Positions 4,637 to 17,517 of a stretch of 51,321 bases of DNA are shown here, in pieces (positions within the stretch are counted from its first letter, which is position 1; every line of letters begins with the position of its first letter). The notes under the pieces were generated by a model, which was not told the origin of the DNA, ran no database searches, and saw only the letters and a list, made by a program, of their open reading frames with translations. Source of the DNA: Spirochaetales bacterium (GTDB taxonomy: Bacteria > Spirochaetota > Spirochaetia > SZUA-6 > RPPD01). The stretch is from NCBI GenBank assembly GCA_016929065.1, contig JAFGJO010000060.1:1-51321 (forward strand). Reading direction: 5' to 3'. The translations under genes and the position numbers were made by a program.

Positions 4637-5605
4637 TCATTTGTTTAAATTTTTGATGGTTTTGTCCAGTAATGCAATACTTTTTTCACCAAAAATATTT
4701 TTCAGCAGTTTTTCGGATTCTGCAGGCATCGGTGCGGTTAGAACCCCAAAAGGATATTGCGGATCAACAACTGTTAATTGACCTGCGTGGAGCAGATACC
4801 AGGGGAATCTGCGGCTGCCGCCATACTTTATGTCTCCGGTAAGGGGAAATCCGTGAATTGCAGCCTGAGAGCGAATCTGGTGAGTTCTCCCGGTTCGGGG
4901 AAGGAAGAGTGCCAGAGTATGGTTGTCTGCCGATATCACCGGAAAAACCTTTGTTATGGATGTTTTTCCCTTCGATGTTTTACTATTGCCGGTAATCCGG
5001 GCAGCCGGATTCCGGACAAGGACATCCTCCCACACAGCATCATGCTTGAGAAGATTATCCATAACGCCTATGTATATTTTTTGTATTTTCCTCTCACGAA
5101 ACAGTCTGGTGAACATCCTTGCGCCGTGGATCGATGCAGAAAACAACTGTAAACCTGTTGTGTTGCGGTCAAGCCGGTGAATGGGCCCGGGATGAAATGA
5201 AAGTGAATGGTCATTGCGTTCAGCCCATAAAAAGCGCACCTGGTATTCAAGCGATCCATGCCCGTGCACAACCAGTCCGCGGGGTTTGTTGAAAGCAATG
5301 ATATGTTCATCTTCATAAATAATCATGTTACAAAGTTCCCTGAGGGGAACCTTTATATCGTCTCCGTTGGAGGATGAAGCAGTACTGCCCGGTTTGTTTA
5401 TGGAAAAAAATACCAGAATGGAATCATGAGCATGCACCCGGGTTTCGGGAGTGCACTTTTTGCCGTTGAGCGTGATCAGTCCCTTTCTCAATGCCCGAAA
5501 AATATTTCCCCGGGTAAGCTGGGGAAATGCCTGAAGCAGAACACGGTCAATCCGTTTGCCGTCGTCATTCTCGCCGGCGGTAAATACATTAGTTGCTTTT
5601 TTCAT
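4637..5605 (-). CDS. RluA-family 23S rRNA/tRNA pseudouridine synthase
   Basis: The N-terminal 60 residues form an S4 RNA-binding domain (GKRIDRVLLQAFPQLTRGNIFRALRKGLITLNGK). The catalytic domain has FNKPRGLVVHG and the RluA signature HRLDRNTTGLQLF with the catalytic Asp near residue 146, then TGRTHQIRSQAAIHGFPLTGD near the end. It isomerises uridine in RNA; which site cannot be told from sequence. I use ATG 5605. A TTG at 5617 lies only 3 nt after a GGAGG and is possible. The gene overlaps the end of mlaD by 17 bp and is probably cotranscribed with the mla genes. Confidence 0.9.
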   Translation of the reverse strand: MKKATNVFTAGENDDGKRIDRVLLQAFPQLTRGNIFRALRKGLITLNGKKCTPETRVHAHDSILVFFSINKPGSTASSSNGDDIKVPLRELCNMIIYEDEHIIAFNKPRGLVVHGHGSLEYQVRFLWAERNDHSLSFHPGPIHRLDRNTTGLQLFSASIHGARMFTRLFRERKIQKIYIGVMDNLLKHDAVWEDVLVRNPAARITGNSKTSKGKTSITKVFPVISADNHTLALFLPRTGRTHQIRSQAAIHGFPLTGDIKYGGSRRFPWYLLHAGQLTVVDPQYPFGVLTAPMPAESEKLLKNIFGEKSIALLDKTIKNLNK

Positions 5606-6395
5606 TTTTCGGAACAATATCCTCCAGAATAATTTCGAGATCTCTGGTGATAACGGTCAGGCTTTCGGATATTTTCTGAAGATTGGAAATGGTTTTTTCT
5701 ATATCCTGCGAACTTTTTTTACTGCTTAATACCGATACAACCGAATCGTCAGAGGCAAGACTGTCGGTAATTTTATCAAGGCCGTCCATAACCCGTGCAA
5801 AGCGTTCGAGAACCGATGGATCACCCCCGTCAGCGGTGACGAGATACTGCTTGATGGCATCCGAAGATTCCCTTATGTTCTGAAGCGTTGTACTGATATT
5901 GTCCTTGTTGTCGCGGAGAATTTCGGAAAGAATGCTCATGGATGTGGTGAAATCCTTGATGAGTGTATCGCTTGAAAGTAGAAACGAATCAAGATTTTTG
6001 ATTGGATCACCTTGTACATGATCCCCTTCCTGGATAAATTCAGTTGAGTCCGCAGGAATGACTTCCACATATTGATCACCCAGCAAAGATCCGGACATAA
6101 TAATAAACCGCGATCCTTTCAATACTTTTTCCTTTGGGTATAAACTGATTTCCGCGATGACACTTTTCCGATCCACCTCATTTATTTTTATCGCGGTAAC
6201 ACTACCAATTCGCACTCCCGCAGTTCTGACTACGGCTCCGACCGGCATAGAGCCGATGTGGTGAAAGGTTATATAGAATCTTGTCCCGACAAAAAACTGG
6301 GTCTTGCTTACCAGAAGATACAATCCGACAATAAAGACCAATGCGATAAGGATAATAATGACAGATTTCCGAATGTTCTTAGAATTGATTCTCAT
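5589..6395 (-). CDS. mlaD: MCE-domain lipid-binding protein (MlaD type)
   Basis: The protein has one N-terminal membrane anchor (residues about 11-29, SVIIILIALVFIVGLYLLV) followed by an MCE domain with FYITFHHIGSMPVGAVVRTAGVRIGSVTAI and the LLGDQYVEV strand. A long helical C-terminal half (residues about 130-268) is likely coiled coil. MlaD proteins form rings that shuttle phospholipids across the periplasm with MlaF and MlaE. It is the third gene of mlaE-mlaF-mlaD, overlapping mlaF by 17 bp. No mlaB or mlaC homologue lies in the window, as is common for stripped-down Mla systems. Confidence 0.92.
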   Translation of the reverse strand: MRINSKNIRKSVIIILIALVFIVGLYLLVSKTQFFVGTRFYITFHHIGSMPVGAVVRTAGVRIGSVTAIKINEVDRKSVIAEISLYPKEKVLKGSRFIIMSGSLLGDQYVEVIPADSTEFIQEGDHVQGDPIKNLDSFLLSSDTLIKDFTTSMSILSEILRDNKDNISTTLQNIRESSDAIKQYLVTADGGDPSVLERFARVMDGLDKITDSLASDDSVVSVLSSKKSSQDIEKTISNLQKISESLTVITRDLEIILEDIVPKNEKSN

Positions 6396-7134
6396 TGTTT
6401 TTATGCACCCTTTCTCTGTTGCTGATAAAATGTTTATATATTACAGATGTCGGCAGAAAAGCGGTTTCTTTTGTCATGATCGTGGTGATCGTTCCGTTTT
6501 CGAGCAGCGCTATTTTTTCACCCACATATTTGGCCAGATCAATATCATGGGTGACGATAAGCGATGTAATTTTCAGTTCCTGCTTTAATTTCAGAATCAG
6601 CGACTCAACAATTCCTGCGCTTTCCGGGTCAAGCCCTGATGTCGGTTCATCGTACAGCAGATATTTTGGTTCCATAATCATGGCCCGGGCAAGTGACACC
6701 TTCCGCTTCATGCCGCCGGAGAGCTCAGCCGGGAACGAGTGAACAAATTCCGACATCTCGACCAGATCAAGAAAACGGAAAACTTTTTTTCTTATTTCAT
6801 TCATCGGTGCCAGTTTATGATAGATCAGGGGAAATGCAACATTTTCAAAAACATTCATGGAATCAAAAAGTGCTCCTTCCTGCAGCACCATTCCGATTTT
6901 CCAGCGAATTCTCAGCAAGTCATTTCTGCTTGCAGCGGTTATATCTTCATCATCAATATAAATTATTCCTGTATCTGCATCAATAAGCCGGGTAATACAT
7001 TTAAGAAGAACAGACTTCCCGATTCCGCTTTTTCCCACAATGACAAACGTATCAGCATCTTCGATGTCAAGTGAAATATTGTCCAGAACTTTATTGGTTT
7101 CAAATGATTTATGGACGTTTGAAATTCGAATCAT
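6379..7134 (-). CDS. mlaF: Mla lipid-transport ABC ATPase (MlaF type)
   Basis: This 251-aa ATPase has Walker A GKSGIGKSVLL near residue 35, Q-loop LQEGALFDSMNVFENVAFPL (the MlaF-type spacing), signature ELSGGMKRKVSLARA, Walker B YLLYDEPTSGLDP and switch His in IVTHD. It powers phospholipid transport through the MlaE permease. Its start overlaps the mlaE stop by 4 bp, so translation is probably coupled. Both components are complete, with no missing motif. Confidence 0.95.
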   Translation of the reverse strand: MIRISNVHKSFETNKVLDNISLDIEDADTFVIVGKSGIGKSVLLKCITRLIDADTGIIYIDDEDITAASRNDLLRIRWKIGMVLQEGALFDSMNVFENVAFPLIYHKLAPMNEIRKKVFRFLDLVEMSEFVHSFPAELSGGMKRKVSLARAMIMEPKYLLYDEPTSGLDPESAGIVESLILKLKQELKITSLIVTHDIDLAKYVGEKIALLENGTITTIMTKETAFLPTSVIYKHFISNRERVHKNNENQF

Positions 7135-7991
7135 AGGGCATCCGTAAAAAACCCGGTGAGCGTCAATAAAATCTGGGTAATCAGCATGATGATAAGAACA
7201 TAGATGAAATTGATAACGATTGACTTGGTCGTTGCTTTCCCAAGTTCGATTGCTCCTCCGTTGAAATAAAAACCGGCAGCACAGGCATTTAATGAAATAA
7301 AAAATCCAATAAGGGCAATCCGGACAAAAGACTGGGTAACAGTACCTGATTTCAAAAAAGTAAATGCATTGTCAAGAATCGTGCTGGGAGCTACCTGAAA
7401 CCATAAATTGAGAAAAAGGGTCGTTGAAATCAGGGAGATTCCATTTGAAATTCCCAATAGGAGAAGAATGCTGAGAACTGAGCCGACCACTCGGGGAATA
7501 ACAATCAGCTGGATTGGTTCGACTGCCATCATCCGCTGTGCATCAAGCTGCCCGCTCATTGCCATCGATCCGATTTCAACAGTAAAAGCTGTCCCGACCC
7601 GGCATGCATAGAGCATTCCGACGAGGAGAATGGTGAATTCATGAATAATCCCGAAGGTTGCGGTAGGGCCGATCAGATTGATTGATCCGTATAAACTTCC
7701 GAAATATCCGCCGAGCCAGGCAATAAACATCCCCATGACCACTGACCCGATAATAATCGTCACAAATCCTTCGATGAGACACCGCATGAACTGTTCTACA
7801 ATCTGGATTATTTTAAACGGCCGGTGAAACAGCCAGTAAAAAAAATTCAGATATATCCTGAGGATACCCCTGGCGGTTACTGACCATTCTTTTAATGTAT
7901 TCTCTCTTGATTCTGTCACAACATGGTAAATTCTATACTTTTCTGCGATGGTGTCAATCACTTCAGTCAAAAACTGTCGATAATTTGACAA
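7131..7991 (-). CDS. mlaE: Mla lipid-transport permease (MlaE type)
   Basis: The MlaE permease family is recognised from the hydrophobic core with GSVVMGMFIAWLGGYFGSL, EFTILLVGMLYACRVGTAFTVEIGSM, QLDAQRMM and PRVVGSVLS, with about five membrane segments. The product has 286 aa, about 25 longer at the N-terminus than typical MlaE. The first start is TTG 7991, two codons after an in-frame stop and without a clear ribosome-binding site, so the true start may lie downstream. It is the first gene of the mla transcript, divergent from the PAP2-like gene. Confidence 0.93.
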   Translation of the reverse strand: MSNYRQFLTEVIDTIAEKYRIYHVVTESRENTLKEWSVTARGILRIYLNFFYWLFHRPFKIIQIVEQFMRCLIEGFVTIIIGSVVMGMFIAWLGGYFGSLYGSINLIGPTATFGIIHEFTILLVGMLYACRVGTAFTVEIGSMAMSGQLDAQRMMAVEPIQLIVIPRVVGSVLSILLLLGISNGISLISTTLFLNLWFQVAPSTILDNAFTFLKSGTVTQSFVRIALIGFFISLNACAAGFYFNGGAIELGKATTKSIVINFIYVLIIMLITQILLTLTGFFTDAL

Positions 7992-8015
7992 TTTCTATTG
8001 ACAAAACAGGATACT
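7985..8015 (+). promoter_or_regulatory. Possible promoter of the PAP2-like gene
   Basis: Two TTGACA boxes stand at 7985-7990 and 7998-8003. The first is followed after 19 bp by GATACT (8010-8015). The 56-bp divergent interval must hold promoters in both directions; this is the best plus-strand candidate, but the spacing is long. Confidence 0.3.
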
Positions 8016-8047
8016 CTCTGGAAACTGTATTCTTGGAAAATACATTT

Positions 8048-8506
8048 ATGGAATACATCAGGGAACTCTTTTTAAATAAGATTTTTTTGTCTGCGATTTT
8101 CAGTTGGTTTATTGCTCAGGTCATGAAGTCTGTTGTGGAAATAGTAAAGAACCGGCCGCGCAGTGCGGTCAAAATTCTGACCTATATGTTTTGGGCGACA
8201 GGCGGCATGCCCAGCAGTCATTCTTCGGTAGTGACCGCGATTGCAGCAGGTATCGGGTTTGTAAACGGGGTGGGTGATCCCCTGTTTGCCGTGACCCTTT
8301 TTTATGCATTACTGGTCATTCGTGATGCAATGGGTGTCCGTCGGTCAACCGGCCTGCAGGCGCAGACGATCAACAGAATATTATCCGTCATCGACACTGA
8401 AAGAAAAATTAAACCGGTAAAAGAAATTCATGGCCACAGCACTGCCGAAGTTTCCGTCGGTATTCTTTTGGGTTTTTTTATCGCTGCCGCATTTTGTAAT
8501 CTTTAA
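8048..8506 (+). CDS. Divergent PAP2 family membrane protein (DUF212)
   Basis: With ATG 8048 the protein has 152 aa, the usual size of this family. Family marks are KSVVEIVKNRP at the first segment, the GGMPSSHSS motif (residues about 52-60) that resembles a phosphatase SxxxH core, DAMGVRRSTGLQAQ, and GHSTAEVSVGILLGFFIA. Three to four membrane helices are predicted. The family belongs to the PAP2/acid phosphatase superfamily, but substrates are unknown. The frame is open further upstream to 7895, but that would cross into the mlaE coding region and adds no family sequence. Confidence 0.88.
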   Translation: MEYIRELFLNKIFLSAIFSWFIAQVMKSVVEIVKNRPRSAVKILTYMFWATGGMPSSHSSVVTAIAAGIGFVNGVGDPLFAVTLFYALLVIRDAMGVRRSTGLQAQTINRILSVIDTERKIKPVKEIHGHSTAEVSVGILLGFFIAAAFCNL

Positions 8507-8564: not shown

Positions 8565-10163
8565 ATGAATTACTTGAAAAAACTCAACACCATTTCACGT
8601 CTCAAGAATATATTGTCTTTTGTTCTGCTCGGCAGTGTGGTGTTTCTCTTTCTGCTTTTTACTGTTCCCGCTTTCAATCCCCAGCTTTTTAAAGGGTATT
8701 ACACACTGTATTTTTCCGGATCTGTAGGTGAACAGGATATTGTTGCATCCCTCAATGCTGATCCTGGTGTTGATGTGGTGATTTCAGCTTCATCGGCCTG
8801 GGTTTCGGTGAGTAATCTGACAGGAATTGAAAATATTCCTGTCGCAACAATTCACGCACGCTTGGAGCCGGATGATCCCCGGCTTGACGGGTATATGAAA
8901 CAAATCGGCAAATATTTCAGAATTAATGACGAAAAGAAGACATGGAACATTATCTATATAAAGACTCAGCAGAATGCAATTTATTTATCAATGGTCATCA
9001 ACCGGATCACGAAGGGCGCAACAATAGACTGGCATATTTACGAGCAGGAATTCAGTGAAATTGTGTATATCGTCAGTTTTATCGGAACGGCATTTATAGT
9101 GCTTCTTCTCCTGCTTTTTACACGGCCCCTGCACAGAATACTTCTTGTCGCGGGGCTGCTCCCATGGATCACTGCACTCGTTTCAGGCGGGATTACCCTG
9201 TTTATTCTTTTCTTTCTCTTCGCGCTCGTCTGGGCGGTATTGCTGGATGAATATATTAAATATTTTCTGAACAGGTTGAAAAACCGGTGGGAAGATCCTG
9301 ATTCAAAAAAACTCATGCTGTCCTTCTGTATGTACTGTGTTTTTTTAATTGCAGTGATTGTCCTCGGTATACTTCTTGATACGGCGATACATCAGATTTT
9401 TATAGCCATGGCACTGCAGCTGCTGATTCTGGGCTTGTACACCGGATACAAGGTTTTTCTGTACAGGATTGTGTATCCGGGAAAAAACAGACATGTCCTG
9501 TATTCACCGGTTGAGATGGTCAAAGTATACAAACCACGCTGGAGTCTGAAAAACAGGCACTCACCGGTTTTCATGTTCCTGTTCTGTATCATCGCACTTT
9601 TCCCGCTGATTCTGCTTTTGCCAGGGAGTACGCCGAAAAAGAATTTACCGGTTCCGGAAAGAGTGGATTCGGTTCCCCCCGGTGTCTCCATGGAAGCAGC
9701 AAGGCAGCTTGCATCCATGACGCAGGAAGACGGGCTGCCGAATCTGCATGATTTTGTTGTGCACCGGTCATACCAGGAACGAATTGCCTATGGGAAATAT
9801 GAGTATCAGTTTCCGGTAAAAGACGAGGAAATTGTCCTCGCAACTTTTAAAAAAACACAAGCTGGCCCCATCGAAAAATCACATACAGTCGTCAAACGGT
9901 TCGACAGCAGCTGGTTTTTGCAGATGATTGACTCGGTTCATCCGGCGTCTATAGAGAAAATGCTGATAGACCAGAAAGCGGCAGTAAGCGTCAAAATTCG
10001 CCAGGCACGCTCATTTGAGCATGATTTACAGTCGGTCTGGACAATCATAATAAATTGGTGTATTCTTCTCTGTCCTGTATTATATCTTAATCACCGATTC
10101 ACACGCATTTTCATCTATGGTGTGAAGAAGGACATCCAAATATTACTTAGGGAGCTTAAATGA
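8565..10163 (+). CDS. Unrecognised polytopic membrane protein coupled to rnfC
   Basis: I do not recognise the family. The 532-aa product has an N-terminal membrane helix (residues 15-35), a soluble segment of about 130 residues with VDVVISASSAWVSVSNL, then a block of about five helices between 165 and 297, another helix at 334-354, a hydrophilic domain of about 130 residues (360-490, with QERIAYGKYEYQFPVKDEE), and a last helix at about 495-513. There are no metal-binding Cys clusters. Its TGA overlaps the rnfC ATG (ATGA), which argues for cotranslation with the Rnf complex, so an assembly or regulatory role there is my inference. No clear ribosome-binding site precedes the start. Confidence 0.8.
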   Translation: MNYLKKLNTISRLKNILSFVLLGSVVFLFLLFTVPAFNPQLFKGYYTLYFSGSVGEQDIVASLNADPGVDVVISASSAWVSVSNLTGIENIPVATIHARLEPDDPRLDGYMKQIGKYFRINDEKKTWNIIYIKTQQNAIYLSMVINRITKGATIDWHIYEQEFSEIVYIVSFIGTAFIVLLLLLFTRPLHRILLVAGLLPWITALVSGGITLFILFFLFALVWAVLLDEYIKYFLNRLKNRWEDPDSKKLMLSFCMYCVFLIAVIVLGILLDTAIHQIFIAMALQLLILGLYTGYKVFLYRIVYPGKNRHVLYSPVEMVKVYKPRWSLKNRHSPVFMFLFCIIALFPLILLLPGSTPKKNLPVPERVDSVPPGVSMEAARQLASMTQEDGLPNLHDFVVHRSYQERIAYGKYEYQFPVKDEEIVLATFKKTQAGPIEKSHTVVKRFDSSWFLQMIDSVHPASIEKMLIDQKAAVSVKIRQARSFEHDLQSVWTIIINWCILLCPVLYLNHRFTRIFIYGVKKDIQILLRELK

Positions 10164-11479
10164 ATGCTATAAAAACCTTTCCAAAGGGTGGCGTCCATCC
10201 TCATGGAAACAAGGCGGCAAGTTCATCTCAGCCGATAAAAAATGCACATATACCGCAGCAGGCGATTATTCCCATGAGTCAGCATATTGGTAAACCCGCA
10301 GAGTGTGTCGTGGCAATAGGCGATGCAGTCAAAGAGGGAATGCTGATCGGAAAAGCATCAGGATTTGTTTCTGCAAACATTCATTCGCCGATTCCCGGGA
10401 CGGTCAAGGATATTATTGAAATGTATCTGCCGCAGGGAATAAAGACCTGGGCGATTGTCCTGGAGTTTCAGGGAGAATTTGAACGTTCCGGCAAGCTGTT
10501 TGAAAAAAGAGACTGGAAAGGGTACAGCGCTGAAGAGCTGAATTCGATCGTTGCTGAAATGGGCGTTGTCGGGCTCGGTGGTGCAACGTTTCCCTCTCAT
10601 GTAAAATATGCAGTAAAACCCGAACAAAAAATAGATTCACTGCTCATTAACGGCGTTGAATGTGAACCGTTTTTAACCGCTGATCACCGCCTGATGCTTG
10701 AAAAACCCGAAGAACTTCTGGAAGGGATAAAGATTATCCAGAAAATGGTCAAGGCAGAGCATGTCTACATCGGCATTGAAGTAAACAAACCGGATGCGAT
10801 CTCATTACTGCAGCAGAAAATAAACGATGCAAATCTGAAATTTGAAGTAGTACCCCTGAAAGTACGGTATCCGCAGGGGGATGAAAAAATGCTGCTCAAA
10901 GCAGTTCTGAACCGCGAAGTACCATCCGGAGGCCTGCCGCTTGATATCGGTGCTGTTGTTTCAAATGTCGGAACCGTTTATGCCATTTATGAAGCTGTTG
11001 TATGGGAGAAACCGCTTACCGAACGGATTGTTACCGTGACCGGGTCTGCTGTAGTCAGGCCCTCCAATTTGAAGGTGCGCATTGGAACAAAAATAAGCGA
11101 AGTCATTGAGGAATGCGGCGGATTTAAAACCCCACCCGGGAAAATTGTCCTTGGCGGGCCGATGATGGGTTTTTCCATTGCAGATGTGGACATGCCGGTC
11201 ACAAAAGGGGTATCCGGTATTCTGGTTTTATCAAAAAAAGATTCACATATATATCAAAATGATCCATGTATCCGCTGCGGCAGATGTCTGAAAGCATGTC
11301 CCTGGAACCTGATGCCCACGGTACTCCTGAAGGAGATCGAGAGTCAGAATTACAAGGCGGCATTGGAATTGGGGCTTATGGACTGTAAAGAATGCGGCTG
11401 CTGCACCTATGTTTGTCCGTCTTGTATTCCGCTTGTTCAGACATTCAAATATGGAAAAATATTAGCAAGAAAGAAATAA
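10160..11479 (+). CDS. rnfC: Rnf complex electron-transport subunit C
   Basis: RnfC is the peripheral NADH-reacting subunit of the ion-pumping ferredoxin:NAD+ oxidoreductase. The sequence shows the N-terminal GGVHPHGNK barrel, the flavin/NAD-binding GVVGLGGATFPSHVK (about 137-149), LLINGVECEPFLTAD, an SLBB-like region, and two complete 4Fe-4S motifs at Cys370/373/376/380 and Cys409/412/415/419. It is 439 aa and ends right after the second cluster, so it lacks the long Ala/Lys tail of proteobacterial RnfC. AGGGAG stands just upstream of the ATG. It is the first canonical gene of rnfCDGEAB. Confidence 0.97.
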   Translation: MNAIKTFPKGGVHPHGNKAASSSQPIKNAHIPQQAIIPMSQHIGKPAECVVAIGDAVKEGMLIGKASGFVSANIHSPIPGTVKDIIEMYLPQGIKTWAIVLEFQGEFERSGKLFEKRDWKGYSAEELNSIVAEMGVVGLGGATFPSHVKYAVKPEQKIDSLLINGVECEPFLTADHRLMLEKPEELLEGIKIIQKMVKAEHVYIGIEVNKPDAISLLQQKINDANLKFEVVPLKVRYPQGDEKMLLKAVLNREVPSGGLPLDIGAVVSNVGTVYAIYEAVVWEKPLTERIVTVTGSAVVRPSNLKVRIGTKISEVIEECGGFKTPPGKIVLGGPMMGFSIADVDMPVTKGVSGILVLSKKDSHIYQNDPCIRCGRCLKACPWNLMPTVLLKEIESQNYKAALELGLMDCKECGCCTYVCPSCIPLVQTFKYGKILARKK

Positions 11480-11491
11480 GGATTGATAGAA

Positions 11492-12643
11492 ATGGAAACA
11501 CGTGAACTGTTGATTTCAACTTCATCACCTCATTTACGGGAAGGCTCCAGAACATCCGCGATCATGTGGTTTGTCTGTCTTGCGCTTTTTCCCGCGAGCG
11601 TATGGGGCGTTGTTGTATTTGGCTGGTACTCTTTGATTGTACTCGTCGTAAGTATTTTTACGGCACTTCTTACAGAATTTGTCATCACTGCAATCAAAAA
11701 AAAGATGACATTATTTGACGGCAGTGCGTTTTTGACCGGACTGCTCATCGGCATGAATATGCCGCCGTCCATTCCGGTGTACATACCGGTATTCGCAACC
11801 ATATTTGCCGTTGCAATCGTCAAACACGCGTTCGGCGGGCTGGGACGGAACTGGATGAATCCGGCGCTGGCCGGGCGTGTCTTTGCCATGTTTTCCTGGT
11901 CAAAATCGATGGCGACATGGAGCCTCCCCTCAACACTGGCATCGGTCCCCGGTGCTGATGCGGTTTCAGGCGCATCACCGCTGGGATACATCAAGGCCGG
12001 CCTGCTCGGACTTTCGGTTCAGGCAGATTCTCCTGCACAATTATCAGACGCGCTTGGTTCGATCGGCGGTCCGATGAATTATCTGGCCTCAAAGAATTTT
12101 CCTGTTTCATCATTTGACCTTGGTGCTTCGGGATGGCTGAAATCAGTCTTGAATATTGATATCGGCAGAGGCTACATTGATCTTTTTGTCGGGAATGTTG
12201 CCGGATCAATCGGTGAAGTTTCTGCTTTGCTGCTGCTTGCGGGGGCCTTGTTTTTGTTTATTAAAAAAATCATCAGCTGGCATATTCCGGCCGCCTATCT
12301 GGGTACATTCGCGTTTCTCACCTGGCTGCTCGGAGGATTCCAGTTTTCCCTTGGCTTGTTTCAGGGGGATGTTTTGTTTCATCTGTTTGCGGGAGGGCTC
12401 ATGCTGGGGGTCTTTTTCATGGCAACCGATTATGTGACGACGCCCCTCACACCAAAAGGGATGCTGATATTTGGTGCCGGAGCAGGGTTGTTGACATTCC
12501 TGATCCGGTTTTACGGCGGTCTGCCCGAGGGCGTCTCGCTTGCAATCATCATCATGAATATGTGTGTTCCGCTTATTGACCGGTTTACGAAACCGAAAAT
12601 ATTCGGGTCGATGAAGAAAATCAAAAAAGGAGCCGAAGCATGA
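11492..12643 (+). CDS. rnfD: Rnf complex subunit D (covalent flavoprotein)
   Basis: Membrane subunit with about nine helices, homologous to NqrB, that carries a covalently linked FMN. The start is ATG 11492 with AAGGA 9 nt upstream; TTG 11483 lies too close to that site. Marks are SSPHLREGSRTSAIMW near the N-terminus, LTGLLIGMNMPPSIP, GRNWMNPALAGRVF, and ATDYVTTPLTPKG near the C-terminus. The flavinylation site reads DAVSGASPLG, so the acceptor is Ser162 instead of the usual Thr. The [ST]GA[ST] recognition pattern of the ApbE flavin transferase still holds. No apbE gene is in the window. The end overlaps rnfG by 4 bp. Confidence 0.96.
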   Translation: METRELLISTSSPHLREGSRTSAIMWFVCLALFPASVWGVVVFGWYSLIVLVVSIFTALLTEFVITAIKKKMTLFDGSAFLTGLLIGMNMPPSIPVYIPVFATIFAVAIVKHAFGGLGRNWMNPALAGRVFAMFSWSKSMATWSLPSTLASVPGADAVSGASPLGYIKAGLLGLSVQADSPAQLSDALGSIGGPMNYLASKNFPVSSFDLGASGWLKSVLNIDIGRGYIDLFVGNVAGSIGEVSALLLLAGALFLFIKKIISWHIPAAYLGTFAFLTWLLGGFQFSLGLFQGDVLFHLFAGGLMLGVFFMATDYVTTPLTPKGMLIFGAGAGLLTFLIRFYGGLPEGVSLAIIIMNMCVPLIDRFTKPKIFGSMKKIKKGAEA

Positions 12644-13383
12644 AAGAATTATTAATACCCGGCGTAAAGCTCTTTACCATATGTCTGGCTGCCGCACTTC
12701 TTCTTGGGCTGATCAATGCTGTGACAAAGGGACCCATCGCAGATGCTGAAAAACAAACTGTAGAAAAAGCGCTGAAAGAAATTAAGTTTGACGGTGAACG
12801 CGGAGACTACCTTGTCGCACCGCCGGTAGAGCTCTCAAAGGAAATCTATGAAAAAACTGTACTGGCAAACACAACGGATACGGTTTCGAAAGATACGATC
12901 CAAAAACTGTATACAGGAAAAGATGAAAATACAGTGATGCTGACAACCACGCTCACCGCAGCAGATATCATCAGTGCTGCAGCTGTTTTTACTGCGATAA
13001 AGGAATATAAACCAAAGGGCGCGGTGCGTGCAATGTTTCCCCTGAAAAAAGGCGATGAAATATCCGGTTTTATTCTGGAGATATGGGGTGTCGGCTACGG
13101 CGGCGACATTAAAATGTTCGGTGTCTATGACAAGGATGGAACGGTCCGTGACGCATTGATTCTCAAGGATGCCGAAACACCCGGGCTTGGAAAAAAAGCC
13201 AGGGACAAGGGGTATATGGACAAGTATATTGGAACAAAAACAAGGACAGTACCGGTCATCAAGGCAATGCTTGATAATCCCGACGCGGTAACCGGCGCTA
13301 CCATCACATTTACCGGTGTTGGCGATGCCCTGCGCAACGGTTCGCGCTACATTAGCATGTTTGGAGAAAATAATGAAAATTAA
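12640..13383 (+). CDS. rnfG: Rnf complex subunit G (FMN-binding)
   Basis: One N-terminal membrane helix (residues 8-27) anchors a periplasmic FMN-binding domain. The C-terminal half shows GFILEIWGVGYGGDIKMFGVY, DAETPGLG and the flavin site DAVTGATITFTGV, with Thr221 as the acceptor. At 247 aa it is about 40 residues longer than common RnfG; the extra part is the hydrophilic stretch from 62 to 128. It overlaps rnfD by 4 bp and rnfE by 11 bp. Confidence 0.95.
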   Translation: MKELLIPGVKLFTICLAAALLLGLINAVTKGPIADAEKQTVEKALKEIKFDGERGDYLVAPPVELSKEIYEKTVLANTTDTVSKDTIQKLYTGKDENTVMLTTTLTAADIISAAAVFTAIKEYKPKGAVRAMFPLKKGDEISGFILEIWGVGYGGDIKMFGVYDKDGTVRDALILKDAETPGLGKKARDKGYMDKYIGTKTRTVPVIKAMLDNPDAVTGATITFTGVGDALRNGSRYISMFGENNEN

Positions 13384-14077
13384 AGAATTTACGAAAGGAT
13401 TGTTTCGGGAAAATCCAACCTTTGTCATTATGCTCGGACTGTGTCCGACACTCGCAGTATCAAATCAGGTAGTAAATGCAATCGGTATGAGCGCAGCAGT
13501 TCTCTTTGTTTTGCTAGGATCAAACATCATTATATCGTTGCTGAAAAACTTTATTCCGGACAAGGTCCGGATCCCTTCCTATATTATTGTCATTGCATCA
13601 TTTGTGACGATTGTTGACCTGGTCATGCAGGCATTTATCCCGCCATTGTCGGAAAGCCTTGGGGTGTTTGTTCCACTGATTGTGGTGAACTGTATTATTC
13701 TTGGAAGGGCTGAAGGCTTTGCAAACCGTCATCCGGTGAGCAGTTCCATTCTGGATGCTCTGGGGATGGGGCTTGGTTTTGCTATGGGGCTCACTCTTAT
13801 TGCCCTGTTCCGCGAAATTCTCGGCGCGGGCATGATTACCCTGTTTCCCCTGCCGTTTGATTTTATCGATGAAAAAGGACAGATATTTATCCCCGCACTT
13901 CGCGATGCGCCTGCGGGAGTGTTTATTGCGCCGGCCGGAGCATTGCTGGTCATTGGCCTGTTAAAAGCATTCTTTAACCAGATTGAATTGAAACAGGAGT
14001 GGATCAGGGAAAAAATCAGGCGGCTTGGCAAAAAAAAGCCATTTTCCCCGAAAGAAAAAAAAGGAGCTGAAGCATGA
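13373..14077 (+). CDS. rnfE: Rnf complex subunit E (membrane)
   Basis: RnfE is homologous to NqrD, with six membrane helices and symmetry to RnfA. Marks are NPTFVIMLGLCPTLAVSNQVVNAIGM near the N-terminus, VPLIVVNCIILGRAEGFA and GLGFAMGLTLIALFREILG. In this subunit family conserved Cys residues in the two half-repeats (here LGLCPTLA and VVNCIILGR) hold an intramembrane Fe centre with RnfA. The start is ATG 13373 with GGAG 6 nt upstream; the frame is open to 13316, but that only repeats rnfG sequence out of frame. The C-terminus is Lys-rich. It overlaps rnfA by 4 bp. Confidence 0.96.
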   Translation: MKIKEFTKGLFRENPTFVIMLGLCPTLAVSNQVVNAIGMSAAVLFVLLGSNIIISLLKNFIPDKVRIPSYIIVIASFVTIVDLVMQAFIPPLSESLGVFVPLIVVNCIILGRAEGFANRHPVSSSILDALGMGLGFAMGLTLIALFREILGAGMITLFPLPFDFIDEKGQIFIPALRDAPAGVFIAPAGALLVIGLLKAFFNQIELKQEWIREKIRRLGKKKPFSPKEKKGAEA

Positions 14078-14664
14078 CCTATATAGGCATAATCATAACA
14101 TTTGTATTTATTACGAACTTTATTTTTACCCGGTTTCTGGGCCTGTGTCCCTTTATCGGTGTTTCAAAAAAAGTGGATTCTGCCGTGGGTATGGGTTTCG
14201 CTGTGATATTTGTATCATCGATTGCTGCACTGGTTACCTGGGTAATTTTTAATTTAATTCTCGTCCCCCTGAATATTACCTATCTGCAAACGATCACCTT
14301 TATTCTGGTTATTGCCGCACTCGTTCAACTCGTCGAAATGATGATTCAGAAAATATCCCCGGAACTGTACAGGGCCCTGGGCATATACCTACCCCTTATC
14401 ACGACAAACTGCGCAGTACTGGGCATTGCCCTCATCGCTGTACAGGAAGAATATGGCGTGATTGAAAGTTTTGTTGCCGGATTCTCGGCAGGTGCAGGGT
14501 TCCTGATGGCAATTCTGCTGATGTCTGCTCTTCGTGAGCGGCTCGATCGTGAAGACATTCCAAAGGCATTCAGGGGCGCCCCGATTGCCTTTATCTCTGC
14601 AGGGCTGATGGCCTTAGGGTTCATGGCTTTTGACATGACATTACTCAAGAATTTGATTGGTTAG
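14074..14664 (+). CDS. rnfA: Rnf complex subunit A (membrane)
   Basis: RnfA, 196 aa with six helices, is the partner of RnfE (homologous to NqrE). Marks are TNFIFTRFLGLCPFIGVSKK at the start, LGIYLPLITTNCAVLG in the second half-repeat and AGFLMAILLMSALRERL. The two conserved Cys are in FLGLCPF and TTNCAVLG. The length is normal for the family. It starts 4 bp inside rnfE. Confidence 0.97.
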   Translation: MTYIGIIITFVFITNFIFTRFLGLCPFIGVSKKVDSAVGMGFAVIFVSSIAALVTWVIFNLILVPLNITYLQTITFILVIAALVQLVEMMIQKISPELYRALGIYLPLITTNCAVLGIALIAVQEEYGVIESFVAGFSAGAGFLMAILLMSALRERLDREDIPKAFRGAPIAFISAGLMALGFMAFDMTLLKNLIG

Positions 14665-14673
14665 GAGAATACT

Positions 14674-15486
14674 GTGGATTTATTGCAGGAACTGTTACTC
14701 ATACTATATGCTCTGATCGGTGTTGCGGGACTCGGCATTCTCTTCGGAATCGGGCTCTCTCTCGCATCGCGTTTTCTGGCTGTCCAGAAAAATGAAAAGG
14801 TTGAACTCATTGAAAAGGCGCTGCCGCAGGTAAATTGCGGTGCATGCGGATTTGCAGGCTGTGCAGCGTATGCCGAGGCAGTTGCTTCAGGAAATGTCGA
14901 AATCAATTTATGTACCCCCGGCGGAGCGGAAACTCTCAAGGCCATCGCGCATATTATGAGTGTGGATGCTCCGGAAATTGGTGAAAAAAAAGTGACACAG
15001 GTCCATTGTAAAGGCGGGCGGGGAACCGCGGAATACAGTTTTGAATACAGCGGGGTAAAAGACTGCAATGCCCTGTTCCTTATCGGAGGAGGCAACAAGG
15101 TATGCAAGTACGGCTGTCTTGGACTTGGCAGCTGTATCAAGGTCTGCCCGGTCGATGCAATTTCATATGACGATATCGGCCTGGTTGTTGTCGACAAGGA
15201 TGTTTGTATCAGCTGCGGAAAATGTATTGATGTCTGTCCGACAAAAGTGATGAGATGGATTCCGTATTCTGCTGATTATATTGTTGCATGCAATTCAAAT
15301 GACAAAGGTCCGGTAACAAAAAGGGCATGTAAAGTCGGCTGTATCGGCTGCAAAATATGTGAAAAAAAATCGCCGGAAGGCGGGTATGTTATTACTGATT
15401 TCCTGTCCGTTATTGATTATTCACAGACAGGTGACCGGAATGAGGGCGCAGAAAAATGTCCGCCGAAATGTATCATCAAAAATTGA
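14674..15486 (+). CDS. rnfB: Rnf complex subunit B (polyferredoxin)
   Basis: RnfB accepts electrons from ferredoxin. It has one N-terminal membrane helix (about 5-27), an Fe-S domain with VNCGACGFAGCAAYAEAV and a downstream Cys in NLCTPGG, then ferredoxin-type motifs CKYGCLGLGSCIKVCP, CISCGKCIDVCP and CKVGCIGCKICEK, and a final CPPKC. The start is GTG 14674 with AGGAG 6 nt upstream. The gene order CDGEAB is the one known from clostridia and spirochaetes rather than the proteobacterial ABCDGE. Confidence 0.96.
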   Translation: MDLLQELLLILYALIGVAGLGILFGIGLSLASRFLAVQKNEKVELIEKALPQVNCGACGFAGCAAYAEAVASGNVEINLCTPGGAETLKAIAHIMSVDAPEIGEKKVTQVHCKGGRGTAEYSFEYSGVKDCNALFLIGGGNKVCKYGCLGLGSCIKVCPVDAISYDDIGLVVVDKDVCISCGKCIDVCPTKVMRWIPYSADYIVACNSNDKGPVTKRACKVGCIGCKICEKKSPEGGYVITDFLSVIDYSQTGDRNEGAEKCPPKCIIKN

Positions 15487-15501: not shown

Positions 15502-17517
15502 ATGAAGTCTATTCATCTGGTTTTTGGTGCGCAATGGGATATTATTCCAGGGAGTACTGAACAGGAATTTGAAGAACTCTATCAAAAAACACTCAAACCG
15601 TTTGTCAGTACGCTGTACGAAATTGAAAAGCTCCAGGTAACGCTCTTTTTTTCAGGCACTATTCTCGAACTCCTTGAAAAACTGCACCCCGAGTTTTTCA
15701 ACATTCTCGACGAGATGATGAAACGGCAGCAGGTTGAGCTTCTGGGCGGAGGATATTACAGCCCTGCATTTTCCATCATCCCGCTGAACGACAAACTCGG
15801 CCAGATAGAAATGCTGACCACATACATCCGTTCGCATTTTGGAAAACGGCCAAGGGGGTTCTGGTCTTCCCAGCCGTTTTGGGACATACATTTTCCGACA
15901 ACATTGTCCAGCTGCGGCCTTGAATATTGTTTTTTGAATGATTATGCCTTTCAGTCCTCAGGTGTGAAGGCAGACGATCTGTTTTATGCGCACTATACCG
16001 AAGAACTGGGAAAGAATATTTCCATTCTGCCTCTTTTGTCGGAGATACAGCAGGATGTTTTTCTTGCAGATCCAAAATATATTATACGGGCTTTAAAAAT
16101 GAAATCGCGGCTGAATAACCGCGGTGTCGTTTCCATTATTGCAGATGGAACACAGTTCCAGAAAATGATGCAGCCGGGAAATAATAACCGGAGAATCGAC
16201 TGGCTCAAGGACCTGGCCCAATGTCTTGAGTCGTCAAAAAAACATATTCGTGTTCTGACAGCCGCCGAGTATATAAAAAGATTTCCCCTCACCAGAAAAG
16301 TGTATCTTAATGGAAATTACTCGAAGAGTTTTTTTCATGCACTCTATAAAAACGGAAAAAACAGAGTGTTTTCAAACGGTTATATTAAAAGTACACATTT
16401 CAAGCAGTTTATGAACAAATATCATGAAAGCAATCTTCTTTATGCGAAAATGATGTATACCAATGTCAGTGTTGGACAATTACGGGGAGATAAATACCGG
16501 AAGCTGAATGCAAAAGAAGAACTATGGAAGGCGCAGAACCATACGGGATATTGGCATGGAGACCATGAAGGAATCTATTCACCCCGTCTCCGCAGTGAAC
16601 TGTATAAAAACCTTATTAATGCGGAAAAAGTGACCAGAGTGAAAGGGGTATTTTTTACCTCGATAATATCAACGGATTTTGATTTTGATGGAGAAAATGA
16701 ACTCCTGTATCAATCCAATGAAATGAATGTTTATGTACATTTGAATGGGGGGATTGTTTTTGAACTGGATTATATTCCGGTTTTGCACAATTACGGCAAT
16801 TCCCTTACTCGCCAGCATGAACACTATCACAAACAGTCCCTCCTGGCAAAACTGATACAAAAACCGAAGGCGGATATTTCTGTTGATTCATACCCCCGAA
16901 AAATATTTTGCGATCATTTTTTCAGTCACGCTGTTACTTTTCAGGGTTGGAAAAGCGGCCAATTCCAGGAAGCGGGTGATTTTCTCAATACCCATTACAC
17001 ACTCAAGGACCTGAAGCGCGAGCAGCGGCAAATCACTCTTGAACGGACCGGGATTATCCGTGTAGGGAAATCCCAGTGTCCGGTATATGTGGAAAAGAAA
17101 TATATTTTCAAAAAAAACACAGTGCAGATTTGCTACACACTCATCAATAAATCACCCAAAACATTCGAGATTGCATTTGCCTCAGAACTGAATACATCTT
17201 TTGCATCGCCGAACAAGGATGATTACTCTTTAATCGACCAGTCAGGGAAAACCCCCGCGCTCTGCAACAGCATAATGTCGGAAAAGGACCAGATGACCGG
17301 TATGGTCATGGAAGACAGGATTGCCGGGACAAGACTGAACTGGAACTCTTCTGTTACTTTCTCGTTGTGGCATCAGGCAGTATACGCGAATATTTACAGA
17401 AGCGGAATCATGATTGATTCGTATCAGCATATGTGCGACATGCTGGTCTGGAAAATAAGCCTTGTTCCCGAAAAGGAGTGGCAAGTCACGGTTGAACTGG
17501 TCTTTGAAAAGGTATGA
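15502..17517 (+). CDS. GH57-family glucanotransferase-like protein, catalytic Glu replaced
   Basis: The 671-aa chain lines up over its full length with the GH57 4-alpha-glucanotransferase type (Thermococcus litoralis enzyme, recalled from memory). Similarities include LVFG at the start, FFSGTILELLEK, VELLGGGYYSPAF, DYAFQSSGVKADDLFY, YWHGDHEGIYSPRLRSELYKNLINAE and the beta-rich C-terminal domain. Family-critical sites differ: the HNHQP region is AQWDIIP, and the nucleophile motif LTERVW reads SSQPFW, so the Glu is Gln124. The acid/base motif DDGEKFG is ADGTQFQ, with Asp215 kept. I infer a non-hydrolytic glucan-binding or regulatory protein. The gene follows rnfB by 15 bp and is convergent with the next gene. 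Confidence 0.75.
   Translation: MKSIHLVFGAQWDIIPGSTEQEFEELYQKTLKPFVSTLYEIEKLQVTLFFSGTILELLEKLHPEFFNILDEMMKRQQVELLGGGYYSPAFSIIPLNDKLGQIEMLTTYIRSHFGKRPRGFWSSQPFWDIHFPTTLSSCGLEYCFLNDYAFQSSGVKADDLFYAHYTEELGKNISILPLLSEIQQDVFLADPKYIIRALKMKSRLNNRGVVSIIADGTQFQKMMQPGNNNRRIDWLKDLAQCLESSKKHIRVLTAAEYIKRFPLTRKVYLNGNYSKSFFHALYKNGKNRVFSNGYIKSTHFKQFMNKYHESNLLYAKMMYTNVSVGQLRGDKYRKLNAKEELWKAQNHTGYWHGDHEGIYSPRLRSELYKNLINAEKVTRVKGVFFTSIISTDFDFDGENELLYQSNEMNVYVHLNGGIVFELDYIPVLHNYGNSLTRQHEHYHKQSLLAKLIQKPKADISVDSYPRKIFCDHFFSHAVTFQGWKSGQFQEAGDFLNTHYTLKDLKREQRQITLERTGIIRVGKSQCPVYVEKKYIFKKNTVQICYTLINKSPKTFEIAFASELNTSFASPNKDDYSLIDQSGKTPALCNSIMSEKDQMTGMVMEDRIAGTRLNWNSSVTFSLWHQAVYANIYRSGIMIDSYQHMCDMLVWKISLVPEKEWQVTVELVFEKV

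Follow-up and report, generated by a model that had tools for sequence, protein, structure and literature searches.

The stretch of DNA analysed here (the window, 51,321 nucleotides) covers positions 1-51,321 of contig JAFGJO010000060.1 from a Spirochaetales bacterium (GCA_016929065.1), and all coordinates refer to it. While the Rnf complex is usually treated as a six-gene pump, the window's complete rnf set (C, D, G, E, A, B in this order; Pfam and NCBIfam) is directly preceded by a gene for a 532-aa membrane protein, the subject of this study. The respective features are as follows.

7895..8506, plus strand: DUF212 membrane protein (divergent PAP2), opening the cassette (Pfam E 2.6e-40)
8565..10163, plus strand: 532-aa membrane protein gene, the subject (ORF from ATG)
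8682..9044, plus strand: predicted periplasmic domain A, residues about 40-160, ferredoxin-like alpha/beta (AlphaFold2, fold matches, conservation)
9054..9473, plus strand: predicted helices TM2-TM6, residues 164-303, little conservation (AlphaFold2, alignment)
9630..10016, plus strand: predicted periplasmic domain B, residues about 356-484 (AlphaFold2, conservation)
10149..10154, plus strand: AGGGAG, likely rnfC ribosome binding site, within the 3' end of the subject gene (sequence)
10160..10163, plus strand: ATGA stop/start overlap of the subject gene and rnfC (sequence)
10160..11479, plus strand: rnfC (TIGR01945 E 2.9e-162)
11483..12643, plus strand: rnfD (TIGR01946; flavin motif DAVSGASPL)
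12640..13383, plus strand: rnfG (FMN_bind, Pfam; motif DAVTGATITF)
13316..14077, plus strand: rnfE (TIGR01948)
14074..14664, plus strand: rnfA (TIGR01943)
14674..15486, plus strand: rnfB (TIGR01944)
15502..17517, plus strand: GH57 alpha-amylase/4-alpha-glucanotransferase-like gene, last of the cassette (Pfam)

That is, the cassette, which we call type 1, reads DUF212 - subject gene - rnfCDGEA(B) - GH57. The open reading frame is present exactly as originally predicted, including its end in a shared ATGA: the stop codon TGA (10161-10163) overlaps the rnfC start codon ATG (10160-10162), and the AGGGAG precedes this ATG by a few bases. From such coupling, production in a fixed ratio with Rnf had been proposed and may follow. 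Three further observations concern the surroundings. The listed GTG start of rnfE (13316) is probably too early, as an ATG near 13373 yields the usual overlap with rnfG. The flavin-attachment motif of the window's RnfD carries Ser at the position of the usual Thr, and the same Ser is seen in several other type-1 operons. Finally, the minus strand holds an Mla-type cluster (5589-7991), for which the MlaD domain was found by Pfam and the ABC ATPase and MlaE-like permease were assigned from sequence only.

An AlphaFold2 model of the protein, built with 23 sequences, has a mean pLDDT of 74.9, with both soluble domains at about 90. It shows 8 long hydrophobic helices (residues 2-33, 164-186, 188-207, 210-239, 246-270, 275-303, 333-350 and 488-508) in the predicted order TM1, domain A (about 45-158), TM2-TM6, cytoplasmic loop, TM7, domain B (about 360-480), TM8. 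This agrees with the about eight helices and two extramembrane domains of the original prediction, and both domains are alpha/beta. Based on Lys/Arg counts, domains A and B are predicted outside and the 294-333 loop as well as both termini inside. Domain A resembles ferredoxin-like domains of the PDB in fold searches, while the strand/helix order of domain B in the model (beta-alpha-beta-beta-alpha-beta) is that of the ferredoxin-like fold. A profile comparison of the first with the second half of the protein revealed no internal repeat.

Residue conservation was measured over 86 homologues. The soluble domains hold the top-conserved residues and the helices are the most variable part of the protein. 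In domain A, these are the motif DPRxD at 104-108 (D104, P105, R106 and D108) as well as F118 and Y131, domain B shows conserved P362/P364, P392, H400, Q404, P417 and W450, and the cytoplasmic loop contributes H310 and position 313. Neither a Cys cluster motif nor an [ST]GA[TS] flavin site is among the conserved positions, which makes a role as electron carrier appear unlikely. In family f17, the helices are shrunken and the motifs of domains A and B retained; natural short forms miss most helices. A 229-aa form (G060, L130) was considered as proof of a dispensable membrane part and dropped, since its branch adjoins five genomes without the gene and it may thus be a decaying copy.

With regard to known families, neither Pfam nor NCBIfam matches the 532-aa protein, in line with the earlier statement that it contains no known motif. 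Pfam searches with 26 homologues gave nothing credible (DUF5693 with E 0.36 in one member), a PDB sequence search with the family profile gave chance matches only, and a viral fold library search with the model returned nothing. Structural fold searches are led by RND exporters, SecDF and NPC1-type proteins (Z 7-8, large rmsd). Here, Foldseek reports E 6e-4 to 7e-3 (the N-terminal half matches CusA with 6e-4), while VIA scores such as those of the RND proteins (Z 7-8) are commonly reached by chance background with models of this type, and the whole-length rmsd exceeds 6 A. On the profile level, a spirochaete MMPL profile reaches an hhalign probability of 49% over 84 columns, compared to at most 2.2% for seven control families and 0.4% for SecDF. 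The aligned columns cover the last part of the porter domain as well as TM2-TM3, i.e., a topologically equivalent place. The first half of the protein fits the layout of an RND half (TM - porter domain - five TM), but the second stops after one further TM. Since TM2-6 contain no conserved acidic column (35% or less), in contrast to the invariant Asp of the spirochaete MMPL set, RND-type proton coupling is unlikely. We conclude that the architecture is RND-like, with RND membership at most putative. A clear match to a known unrelated transporter family, which the original prediction had named as the outcome speaking against it, was not found; an RND-like architecture with weak scores is the marginal part that stands.

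Using a profile of 26 homologues, we identified the protein in 205/297 genomes of the class Spirochaetia. Among genomes drawn from the whole phylum, all that match (33/33) belong to this class, and no homologues were detected outside it; the named records matched by a second, five-sequence alignment are all from spirochaetes. For the neighbourhood survey, loci were chosen solely by presence of the subject gene, and 88 of them had at least 800 bp downstream. Directly downstream of the gene lies rnfC in 83/88 loci (82 rnfC plus one rnfC split into two frames), i.e., it is encoded in an rnf operon as a subunit gene would be, and 58 of the 83 measured pairs overlap by 4 nt. Adjacency and overlap thus exceed chance. 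Orthologues located mostly away from rnf, the second outcome that had been named as adverse, were not observed, since the rnf link, the overlap and the absence of a known family hold class-wide.

Linkage is nearly as strong for the outer cassette members: DUF212 is directly upstream in 63/85 loci and GH57 follows the type-1 rnf genes in 21/23 testable loci. Linkage alone is therefore insufficient for subunit status, given that DUF212 and GH57 are themselves unlikely Rnf subunits, and the protein may be a subunit or assembly factor of Rnf as a candidate from its gene context. The gene is under purifying selection (dN/dS 0.08-0.32 in close pairs). DUF212 can outlast it, as seen in the T. pallidum-like genome, G008 and G018.

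Many genomes carry a second (type-2) rnf operon without DUF212, subject gene or GH57; the subject gene is absent from 14/14 type-2 loci read. An rnfC tree built from 110 sequences, unrooted and with long branches, unites the type-2 copies in one group (SH-aLRT 99), while gene-linked and gene-lost copies spread over the remainder with at least five changes. Presence of the gene is thus not Rnf-complex-wide, as it is missing from type-2 and several type-1 operons. Intact type-1 operons that lack it are those of Sphaerochaeta-like families, G008, G018, the g27 genus and others; it follows that the gene is not essential to Rnf. Conversely, five genomes (G051, G063, G085, G131, G160) keep the gene without adjacent rnf. 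For the G131/G160 pair, a dN/dS of 0.30 indicates purifying selection. G063 (L310) retains a 65-codon rnfC stump with the 4-nt overlap intact, although the rest of rnf is deleted.

In Treponema-like and other families (L123-L139, L162, L163, L168, L171, L174, L178), type-1 Rnf is degenerate: the flavin motifs of RnfD/RnfG are unrecognisable, the cysteine motifs of RnfA/E are gone and RnfB is usually gone as well. RnfC retains its two cluster motifs in these copies, and the subject gene is still adjacent. An ORF of 140-190 aa often takes the rnfG position, mostly without a flavin motif. The Borrelia-like genomes (G162, L120:5304-10161; G177, L121) encode DUF212, the subject protein, an RnfC-RnfD fusion of 773 aa without Fe-S cluster motifs and one RnfA-like protein; RnfG is not recognisable there. 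The respective copy of the subject protein starts lipoprotein-type, and its gene shows a dN/dS of 0.08-0.12 between close species. A release-factor gene follows next after this relic cassette. The T. pallidum-like genome (G098, L122) lost the subject gene and kept rnf. Here, we infer the labels Borrelia-like (G162), T. pallidum-like (G098) and Sphaerochaeta-like (f14).

Based on synteny and lipoprotein annotation, the Borrelia orthologue is probably bb0071, a locus number that rests on BB0074, which we take to be prfB. No literature naming BB0070-BB0074 together was found. Transposon mutants of bb0071 are missing from fed larval ticks according to Tn-seq (PMC6516651). A tentative and rather doubtful reading is that the protein and the degenerate type-1 Rnf of Borrelia-, Treponema- and several other lineages form an Rnf-derived membrane machine that, with no RnfD/G flavin sites, RnfA/E cluster or RnfB, would have lost transmembrane electron transfer and be under selection for another job, e.g., in conducting ions, in sensing or in organising the envelope. 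The job of such a relic machine would matter in the tick, provided that bb0071 is the orthologue (PMC6516651).

Our preferred explanation, to which we assign a probability of about 0.5, sees in the protein a non-redox partner, specific to Spirochaetia, of the membrane module of type-1 Rnf, acting via its two ferredoxin-like periplasmic domains. Both domains would rest against the RnfD/E/A module (plus RnfG where present) on its outer side, held in place by the membrane helices, and could stabilise or gate this module. The contact might be made by DPRxD of domain A together with H400, Q404 and W450 of domain B. Translation coupled to rnfC would supply the protein together with RnfC, while Rnf catalysis as such would proceed without it. 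For a partner speak the survey picked by the subject gene alone (rnfC next in 83/88 loci, most of them with the 4-nt overlap), the gene's stay beside type-1 Rnf after loss of redox sites and RnfB, and the separate type-2 clade that lacks it within the same genomes (14 loci). Against it stand the intact type-1 operons without the gene, the five genomes that have the gene without adjacent rnf, and the strong linkage of DUF212 and GH57.

The latter observations would fit a bystander, which is the chief alternative, if on the unlikely side. That is, the protein would have its own envelope function, alone or with DUF212 (a PAP2-like membrane phosphatase), within an ancestral cassette inherited intact. 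GH57 and DUF212 hold their places though neither is plausible as an Rnf subunit, Rnf operons outlive loss of the gene, and the gene remains under selection in the one pair tested that lacks adjacent rnf. However, no joint of the cassette is tighter than the 4-nt overlap with rnfC, DUF212 is non-adjacent in 22/85 loci where rnfC is still there, and precisely the rnfC/D and rnfA-like remnants are retained together with the gene in the Borrelia-like genomes.

RnfD and RnfG carry flavin on the periplasmic side, i.e., the side on which the model places both domains. An assembly or maturation factor, e.g., for RnfD/RnfG flavin attachment or RnfA/E cluster insertion in an ApbE/NqrM-like role, would fit this, and a position first before rnfC as well as the absence from some intact Rnf operons are compatible with a helper. 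But the gene is kept where the flavin motifs, the RnfA/E Cys motif and RnfB are gone, and also in the Borrelia-like genomes that lack a recognisable RnfG, such that we regard this role as improbable. A pure flavin-maturation factor in particular is weakened by the gene's persistence beside Rnf without flavin motifs. Least probable of all is a half-size exporter that has diverged within the RND superfamily, perhaps transports lipid and is paired with the DUF212 phosphatase: the helix - alpha/beta domain - helix block does begin twice in RND fashion, RND proteins top the fold searches and the MMPL profile stands out from its controls, but the Z scores are common background, SecDF profiles give nothing, the invariant Asp has no counterpart and natural short forms miss most helices.

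If the protein is indeed a partner of type-1 Rnf, an overlapping seventh gene of class-wide age (from free-living spirochaetes to Borrelia) means either a missed component or a dedicated partner, and its persistence beside Rnf without redox sites provides a handle on Rnf relics in reduced-genome spirochaetes. No description of the protein family was found in the searched literature, which included few subscription journals, and a seventh partner of the well-studied Rnf may thus have been overlooked. A review of Rnf and Nqr does not contain the words 'spirochaete' or 'Treponema' (PMC12174285).

Among known systems, the RND superfamily (MMPL, SecDF, AcrB/CusA) shares the helix - ferredoxin-like periplasmic domain - helix block and weak fold and profile similarity, but has 12 helices in contrast to 8, and the protein lacks a conserved acidic relay residue and a significant family match. 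RseC is likewise encoded directly before rnfC in Clostridium ljungdahlii and relatives, where it affects Rnf genes (PMC9124969). It belongs to PF04246, though, which Pfam does not find in the 532-aa protein. RseC of the window genome is located on another contig, and homologues of RseC are encoded at other places in these spirochaete genomes; a replacement of RseC by the subject gene was therefore rejected. NqrM and ApbE, whose genes accompany those of Nqr/Rnf-type pumps (PMC12174285), are accessory proteins that mature cofactors, whereas the 532-aa protein persists where cofactor sites are lost. For Treponema pallidum, a non-canonical RNF was proposed as a redox pump, which is probably the same type-1 operon without the subject gene (L122); the passages considered here do not mention the gene (PMC7512555). 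A further known system is RnfH, an additional, cofactor-free subunit of Azotobacter vinelandii Rnf1 for which other complexes have no homologue (PMC12174285), and the 532-aa protein is likewise a non-redox candidate for an extra Rnf component. While RnfH is cytoplasmic and structure-resolved, the spirochaete protein combines 8 predicted helices with two periplasmic domains and is seen in no Rnf structure.
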